Positions 34,993-44,536 of a DNA stretch of 64,000 nt are shown one piece after another. The stretch lies in contig QZJG01000054.1 of NCBI GenBank assembly GCA_003599275.1, positions 1 through 64,000 of the forward strand. Direction: 5' to 3'. The notes beneath the pieces were generated by a model that had not been told where the DNA came from, searched no databases, and worked only from the letters and a program-made list of their open reading frames with translations. Made by a program: the position numbers and the translations under genes. This DNA comes from Nitrospiraceae bacterium (GTDB taxonomy: Bacteria > Nitrospirota > Thermodesulfovibrionia > UBA6902). Every line of letters starts with the position of its first letter. The stretch's first letter is position 1.

Positions 34993-35091
34993 TATATCAT
35001 GTTGATAGGATAAAATTATTTGTTCGGATAACATGGACATGAAAGCCTGTTTCAGAATTTCCATACGACACTTTTGAAAAGGGAATAGGGA

Positions 35092-36189
35092 TCAGGGGGT
35101 AGGGACAATATTGTAGTACATGTCCCGTTGAGCAGGCTGAAAACCTGCCGACTTAATAGCGGTTGTAATATCATTTATTGAAACCTTATATTTCACGCCT
35201 GCGGCTGCGACAACATTCTCTTCGAGCATTGTCGAACCGAAATCATTGGCCCCGAACCTCAGCGCCACCTGTGCGGGCTTCAGTCCCTGCGTCACCCACG
35301 ACGCCTGTATATTCGGGACGTTGTCGAGATAAATTCTTGAAAGCGCAAGCACGCGGAGATACTCAACTGCGGTAGCAGCGTTAAAGGGGTTAGGGGTTGG
35401 GGATTTGGGGTTGGTCTTTTTTCTTTTACTACCCCCTAATCCCTGATCCCTAACCCCTAATTCAGTATTCCCCGGCTGAAAACTCCAGGGAATGAATGCC
35501 GTAAAGCCGCCCGTCCTGTCCTGCAGCTTACGTATTGCGTCAAGATGTTCAATAATGTCTTCGGGTCCTTCAATGCTGCCGAACATCATGGTTGCCGTTG
35601 TCTTCATCCCGGTGAGATGCGCCTCTTTCATCACCTCAAGCCATCTGCCCTTGTTGATTTTTTTGGGGCTTATCTTTTCCCTGATCCTGTCGGAGAGGAT
35701 TTCTGCTCCTCCCCCGGGGATGGAGTCGAGACCGGCTTCATTTAAAATACGCAATGTCTTTCTTATTGAAAATCCCGCCTTGTCTGCCATGTAACAAATC
35801 TCGGGCGGCGAAAAGCCGTGAACGTGGATATTGAATTTTTCCTTGACCGTTTTTAAAAGATCGACGTAATAATCAATATCGAGCCCGGGATGCAGTCCGC
35901 CCTGGATCAATATCTGCGTTCCGCCGAGGGAAATCGTTTCTTTTATCTTGTTGAAAAGTTTCCTTCTGTTTAATACATATGCCTCCGGGTCTTTTTCGTC
36001 CCTCCAGAACGCGCAGAATGTGCATTTATTTATACAGACGTTCGTGTAATTGATGTTGCGGTCGATAATGAATGTCACGGTCCCGTCAGGATGCAGTTTC
36101 TTCCTGATATTGTCCGCTGTCATCCCGAGACCGAGGAGGTCGGCTGATTTGAAGAGGGTCAAGGCCTGTTTTTTAGTAATGCGGTCCAT
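35092..36189 (-). CDS. mqnC: Cyclic dehypoxanthinyl futalosine synthase-type radical SAM protein (futalosine menaquinone pathway)
   Basis: CINKCTFCAFWR radical SAM Cys motif, ILIQGGLHPGL, FIPWSFQPGNTELG, NIQASWVTQGLKPAQVALRFGANDFGSTM. Confidence 0.9.
   Translation of the reverse strand: MDRITKKQALTLFKSADLLGLGMTADNIRKKLHPDGTVTFIIDRNINYTNVCINKCTFCAFWRDEKDPEAYVLNRRKLFNKIKETISLGGTQILIQGGLHPGLDIDYYVDLLKTVKEKFNIHVHGFSPPEICYMADKAGFSIRKTLRILNEAGLDSIPGGGAEILSDRIREKISPKKINKGRWLEVMKEAHLTGMKTTATMMFGSIEGPEDIIEHLDAIRKLQDRTGGFTAFIPWSFQPGNTELGVRDQGLGGSKRKKTNPKSPTPNPFNAATAVEYLRVLALSRIYLDNVPNIQASWVTQGLKPAQVALRFGANDFGSTMLEENVVAAAGVKYKVSINDITTAIKSAGFQPAQRDMYYNIVPTP
35384..35458. repeat. Palindromic repeat apparently inserted in frame in mqnC
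   Basis: Arms aggggttaggggttggggatttggggttggt and actaccccctaatccctgatccctaacccct are inverted (about 25/31 matches) around a 13-nt loop. Confidence 0.75.
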
Positions 36190-43813: not shown

Positions 43814-44536
43814 TCAGAGTGATCTGACAATAAAATATACCCCCATCGCTATAATAATTGTCCCTGACAATCTGTACAGCAGCCCTCGCAGTTTATGGCC
43901 CAGATATCCGGCAACGAAGCCGAACAGCAGCAATGCGGGAAGTGTCCCGATCCCGAAGAAAAACATGGTAAGCATTCCGGATAACATGTCGCCTGTTCCG
44001 GCCGCGGCCATAAACACGGTGTACGAAAGGCCGCACGGCAAAAACCCGAACAAAGCGCCGAGGGGATAGTAGAGCCATGAAGTTTCACCATGCAATAAAT
44101 TTTTCCCGGCCCGCAGAATGAGACTGTTGCGTCTTTCAAGCCATGCTGTTCCGCCTGTAATACCGGATATGCTTATGCCCATGAATATCATTATCAGTCC
44201 GGCAATCAGCGCTACCGCATTTTGAAAACCGGTCATCTCACCGGCGATATTTACAAATGAACCGGTAAGTCCCATTATCGCTCCTATAAACATATAGGTA
44301 GTAATGCGCCCTGTATTGTAGAAGATATGGGGGACAAGGTCCATGGCGAAAAGATGCTCTCTAAATCTAAAATGAGGGGATATTTCTATAGCCCCCCCTC
44401 CCTTGACGGGAGGGGGTAAGGGGGAGGGTGAATTGTGAAACGCGTAAGCGGTTATAAGCGGCCCGCACATCCCCATGCAATGTCCGAACCCGCCGAGGAA
44501 GCCCGTTGTAAATGCGAGAGTATAGCTGAGTTCCAC
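43814..44536 (-). CDS. Sulfite exporter TauE/SafE (TSUP)-family protein of the cco cluster
   Basis: TTGFLGGFGHCMGMCGPLITAY, NTGRITTYMFIGAIMG, GALFGFLPCGLSYTVF; contains a repeat-derived segment. Confidence 0.85.
   Translation of the reverse strand: MELSYTLAFTTGFLGGFGHCMGMCGPLITAYAFHNSPSPLPPPVKGGGAIEISPHFRFREHLFAMDLVPHIFYNTGRITTYMFIGAIMGLTGSFVNIAGEMTGFQNAVALIAGLIMIFMGISISGITGGTAWLERRNSLILRAGKNLLHGETSWLYYPLGALFGFLPCGLSYTVFMAAAGTGDMLSGMLTMFFFGIGTLPALLLFGFVAGYLGHKLRGLLYRLSGTIIIAMGVYFIVRSL
44392..44437. repeat. Palindromic repeat ccccccctcccttgacgggagggggtaagggggaggg within the TSUP gene
   Basis: Hairpin arms ccctccc-ttga-cgggaggg; same architecture as the 13887 element; translated as SPSPLPPPVKGGG. 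Confidence 0.6.

Follow-up and report, generated by a model that had tools for sequence, protein, structure and literature searches.

We describe a palindromic repeat lying in frame within mqnC, a gene of menaquinone (vitamin K) synthesis that encodes cyclic dehypoxanthinyl futalosine synthase, in a 64,000-nucleotide stretch (the window) of contig QZJG01000054.1 from an uncultured Nitrospirota bacterium (Thermodesulfovibrionia). The product of this gene matches TIGR03699, the MqnC equivalog model, with 486 bits (cut-off 428), and the named close relatives belong to Nitrospirota, mostly metagenome-assembled genomes (MAGs) of Thermodesulfovibrionia. The gene and the parts of the repeat are as follows.

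35092-36189, minus strand: mqnC, 365 aa; reading frame intact, conserved residues present in a 32-sequence alignment
35371-35457, minus strand: residues 245-273, the 29 aa that separate TEL from AVEYL and form an insert when compared with short-loop orthologues
35428-35458, minus strand: 5' arm on the coding strand, G-rich heptamers GGGGTTA GGGATCA GGGATTA GGGGGTA
35432-35457, minus strand: putative quadruplex motif on the coding strand, four G-runs with 3-4 nt loops
35416-35427, minus strand: A-rich loop separating the arms, family form GTAA(n)ACCAA
35385-35415, minus strand: 3' arm on the coding strand, inverted C-rich heptamers, translated as TNPKSPTPNP

Anatomy of the palindrome in mqnC

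An earlier sequence-only reading of this locus described an imperfect palindrome of two 31-nt arms with about 25/31 matches and a 13-nt loop, which left the reading frame open and added a low-complexity segment to the protein. The arms and their pairing (25/31 complementary, 81%) were confirmed by our measurements; the spacer is 12 nt, giving an element of 74 nt. The open reading frame (ORF) at 35092-36189 indeed runs through the whole insert, whose translation is GVRDQGLGGSKRKKTNPKSPTPNPFN. That description did not include the heptamer build of the arms (approximately four heptamers each), the further copies in the genome or a second half-copy at 35080-35104. Each arm is a direct array of heptamers with no inverted repeats within it. 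When we scanned the window for inverted repeats with 31-nt arms, 25 or more pairs and 4-20 nt between the arms, the mqnC palindrome was the sole match, and the same scan of 20 shuffled windows returned no palindrome of that quality. The coding strand folds at -37.7 kcal/mol, compared with -23.9 kcal/mol for dinucleotide shuffles (z -4.1), and none of 200 shuffles folded as well. Related GGGNATC repeats form quadruplexes (PMC4692102).

In an AlphaFold2 model of MqnC with a mean predicted local distance difference test (pLDDT) score of 87 and a confident core, insert residues 248-265 score below 50, so that the insert is predicted to form a disordered loop. It is probably near-neutral for MqnC.

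Dispersal and reading frame of the GGGATTA family

The element is not unique, as the genome search proposed in the sequence-only reading established: its own genome contains 27 matches at E up to 10, many of them weak, of which six have E <= 0.01. Copy numbers for this genome were drawn from searches together with a 464-kb sample, and the genes bearing copies were named mostly from conserved motifs rather than by family searches. In-frame copies in the same genome occur in a Ca-ATPase, at the C-terminus of an ABC ATPase, at the N-terminus of LpxI, and in a glycosyltransferase, an NAD(P)HX dehydratase-like protein, a histidine kinase and a DNA polymerase III delta'-like protein. Genomes of the same genus contain between 0 and 30 GGGATTA matches, and a second family, GAGTTAA, is distributed separately, with 33 matches in a genome that has no GGGATTA match.

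We aligned 28 GGGATTA copies from three genera. They share one layout, consisting of four GGGATTA-type heptamers, an A-rich loop and four inverted heptamers, and in nearly all of them the loop starts with GTAA and ends with ACCAA. Eighteen distinct copies lie within ORFs of more than 200 aa that represent unrelated conserved genes, including those for MqnC, Ca-ATPase, LpxI, MurD, CarB, QueC, PurL, a formyl-THF cyclo-ligase-like protein and a DotU-like protein. The left arm is read in the same frame in 17 of these 18 copies (G-I/V-R-D-Q-G-L-G; GIRDQGLG), and the loop has the same orientation in all 18. A pure GGGATTA palindrome has none of its six frames open. The frame in use is opened by YCA in unit 2, which removes an in-frame TAG and is present in 15/18 genic copies compared with 2/9 other copies (Fisher p 0.004); unit 2 lacks an in-frame TAG in every genic copy. 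The MurD copy, which is read in a different frame, keeps the C of unit 2 and carries the same change in unit 3, where the MurD frame requires it. The MurD frame does not need the unit-2 change, and we read this pattern as descent from an ORF-compatible parent copy.

Taken at the level of sequence, these comparisons show that the whole element, arms and loop together, is dispersed in and between genes in its own genus and in other genera of the family, and that the copies in genes are free of stops and, with few exceptions, share one frame and orientation. GGGATTA-type palindromes were also seen between or beside tRNA genes in the same genome (L009, L018). A 24,059-aa open frame in G025:C79 is only apparent, being a masked run of N.

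The GGGATTA family is one of many. In the 464-kb sample we found 16 lag-7 tracts with about ten different unit sequences, compared with 0-2 tracts at lags that are not multiples of seven and no lag-7 tract in shuffles. At the mqnC loci of relatives, a set that includes the insert site, lag 7 is again dominant (70 tracts), with some lag 8. These genomes hold many different heptamer families, and period seven stands out against all other periods. We rejected an A-rich loop common to all heptamer families; the proportion of A after 60 arrays is 0.34 versus 0.27, and because this enrichment is slight we claim a shared loop for the GGGATTA family only. Heptamer arrays (e.g., AGTCAGG) also occur at or beside mqnC in some Firmicutes (L092, L102, L107), so the heptamer class is wider than Nitrospirota.

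Changing occupants of the same protein site

Alignment of orthologues did not bear out the expectation that the segment would be missing from close relatives. The stretch from TEL to the AVEYL block is 11-40 residues long in all 28 family genomes with a readable site and 7-14 residues long outside the family, where the loop is short. Nor do close orthologues simply share a homologous non-palindromic loop, the finding that had been named as contrary to an insertion, since their loops are mostly of period seven, often palindromic and unlike one another in sequence. The MqnC site is a shared hotspot with changing occupants, and the picture of a segment absent in relatives and present here is wrong.

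The inserts at this site differ in almost every related species and are mostly heptamer arrays of differing families, often but not always palindromic, and a second palindrome is sometimes nested within them. Between two sister species (L030 and L109) the flanks are 91% identical and the inserts are unrelated, and the row nearest to the window gene in a quick MqnC tree (L028) carries a GAGTTAA insert instead of GGGATTA. In that tree the short-loop rows group together, and unit family requires 25 changes over 14 states. The comparison of orthologous sequences shows that the MqnC site has been recurrently occupied and replaced.

Similar patterns were found in other proteins. Site 1 of the Ca-ATPase is occupied in 10/10 genus genomes and site 2 in the nine with a readable site, in each case by different repeat families, and both filled and short forms of the LpxI N-terminus were seen. 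Genome-wide homogenisation of one family was rejected, as different families occupy different sites of one genome. An assembly artefact is unlikely, because many independently assembled MAGs have inserts at the same site, some of these MAGs being single-contig chromosomes (for instance CP070632, L048).

Several further observations concern these sites. In another Nitrospirota branch (L053, L065, L069) the MqnC site holds a palindrome of another kind, which has GGGGACTGTCCC ends and in some cases follows an array of 8-nt repeats. The paralogue MqnE has a GAGTTAA copy near residue 86 in the same genome as the window (G000:C47:20736-21899), and in G017 (L164) a compound heptamer insert at the position equivalent to the MqnC site. 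Another palindrome in the window (44390-44440; CCCCCCCTCCCTTGACGGGAGGGGG) resembles the C-rich palindrome that L131 and L040 carry nested within their MqnC inserts.

Heptamers also occur at the end of mqnC, where two further features overlap the gene.

35080-35104: second heptamer half-array, which encodes the C-terminal VPTP of MqnC and the stop codon (35092-35094)
35050-35104: truncated copy of a composite intergenic repeat that consists of TTTCAGAATTTCYATACGACAC and then a heptamer array and is present at seven genomic locations

The half-array is part of the truncated copy of the composite repeat, and the VPTP and stop codon that it supplies replace the usual YYNII end of MqnC. The composite repeat (L293-L298) is about 150 bp long, with inverted ends around TTTCAGAATTTCYATA, and one fixed inner position carries heptamer arrays of differing families.

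Origin of the repeats and comparison with known systems

We favour, with a probability of roughly 0.68, the explanation that the mqnC insert is a non-autonomous, protein-coding palindromic repeat, a selfish and ORF-tolerant element that spreads and is quickly replaced at insertion-tolerant loops. Copies would spread as selfish DNA, and only those that are stop-free and land in flexible surface loops would persist, with broken proteins being selected against. The arrays themselves could arise and turn over through 7-nt replication slippage, a process that earlier authors have put forward for heptamers in bacteria (cited in PMC4692102 and PMC4679880), while template switching at the hairpin could keep the arms inverted; together these two processes would allow tolerant sites to be refilled or rewritten again and again. 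Several points weigh against this explanation. Our query was itself a genic copy, so the search favours the recovery of genic copies that resemble it. The statistics on frame and on unit 2 were made post hoc, on copies that have a common ancestry. Tracts within genes are not enriched, with 11/16 lag-7 tracts in ORFs when ORFs make up 89% of the sample. No transposase could be linked to the element at the Y1 loci examined, and close relatives yielded no true empty site, so that insertion or target-site duplication is not directly visible. Of the features of miniature inverted-repeat transposable elements, inverted arms are present, and there is no empty site for comparing target duplication.

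The most serious alternative, which we nonetheless regard as unlikely, is a purely local origin, in which the loop acts as a hotspot of mutation, new arrays are continually made in place by 7-nt slippage and by template switching at the hairpin, and the likeness between genes reflects repeated similar origins. Period seven is common to unrelated sequences within one genome and at one site, some arrays are non-palindromic (L029, L034), and the fixed position in the composite intergenic repeat holds differing arrays, all of which this alternative would accommodate, as it would the proposal that heptamers fit the stretch contacting the polymerase (Mrazek 2007, as cited in PMC4679880 and PMC4692102). 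It does not readily explain why GGGATTA copies in unrelated genes match in unit order, unit number, loop and a unit-2 C that the MurD frame does not require. Less probable again is a dedicated enzyme system that writes or swaps heptamer palindromes at fixed sites of housekeeping proteins and leaves the flanks nearly unchanged; if it existed, it would be a continuing source of new protein loops.

It is improbable that the longer loop serves a function in the MqnC of this family, with the DNA repeat being incidental. The site is filled in all family genomes with a readable site, as a functional loop would require, but its length ranges from 11 to 40 aa, the sequences of sister species are unrelated, the segment is predicted to be disordered, and the repeats are the same as those in many unrelated genes and in intergenic DNA.

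We give even less credence to a repetitive extragenic palindromic (REP) element, or a REPIN, moved by a RAYT (Y1) transposase. Two short inverted repeats around a loop in many copies, in genomes with 1-8 Y1 genes each, would suit such a system. REP sequences are themselves short hairpins with a tag of the GTAG or CGTC type, whereas the arms of the Nitrospirota element are direct heptamer arrays with no hairpin in each arm. A heptamer tract lies near one of 16 Y1 loci, about 1 kb away, and adjacent to none, and Y1 counts do not track element counts; we rejected the Y1/RAYT transposase as the mover, its genes being present and not flanked by arrays. Translational bypass, in which ribosomes skip a hairpin within a gene as at the palindromic and untranslated byps of yeast mitochondria (PMC6649704), is very improbable, since the genic inserts are multiples of three, stop-free and in 18/18 cases without the unit-2 TAG, none of which a skipped segment would need.

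Rfam identity was rejected, as matches were sub-threshold only and mostly to miRNA hairpins, as any stable stem would give. Most discussion of palindromes that encode protein has concerned Rickettsia and Wolbachia. We found no description of such elements in Nitrospirota in the open literature, subscription papers being mostly outside the search. In the present case they occur in a distant bacterial lineage, with a simple 7-nt build, many families and same-site replacement between sister species, which together offer a natural series for studying the adaptation of selfish DNA to translation, insertion-tolerant protein loops and the bacterial preference for period seven. Such loops in Nitrospirota proteins should be treated with caution, as repeats and not as domains.

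Several known systems resemble the element in part. The coding palindromes of Nematomorpha mitochondria (PMC6649704) are likewise inverted repeats retained in protein genes, but they have perfect long arms and are not dispersed heptamer elements. The TAACTGA repeats of Beggiatoaceae (PMC4679880) and the short tandemly repeated repetitive (STRR) sequences of cyanobacteria are also dispersed 7-nt tandem repeats; TAACTGA differs in having a single unit sequence that lies mostly just upstream of start codons, is direct and not palindromic, and has stops in all forward frames.

The likeness to Rickettsia palindromic elements (RPEs) suggested in the sequence-only reading holds for behaviour and fails for membership. 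RPEs and the Wolbachia palindromic elements are small dispersed palindromes, intergenic and in frame within many conserved genes, and the Nitrospirota element is likewise a small, dispersed palindrome that lies in frame within conserved but unrelated genes, for the most part in a single frame and with a product predicted to be disordered. To our knowledge, no RPE has a heptamer build. The Nitrospirota element differs from RPEs in host phylum, in length (74 nt, not the 105-146 bp of RPEs; PMC2229807), in being heptameric, in the many families per genome and in the refilling of the same site by different families. The GGGNATC heptamers of Xanthomonas and Nostoc (Rehm 2015, PMC4692102) are similarly G-rich and quadruplex-prone, with four units preferred and inverted pairs common in Xanthomonas, and the tandem 7-nt units of the Nitrospirota arrays, about four per array, follow that pattern. 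GGGNATC repeats are rare in coding regions, whereas the Nitrospirota copies are common in frame in genes, with most of the lag-7 tracts in ORFs, and share their genomes with many heptamer families not rich in G. The element is RPE-like in its working and GGGNATC-like in its build, and has the full defining features of neither.
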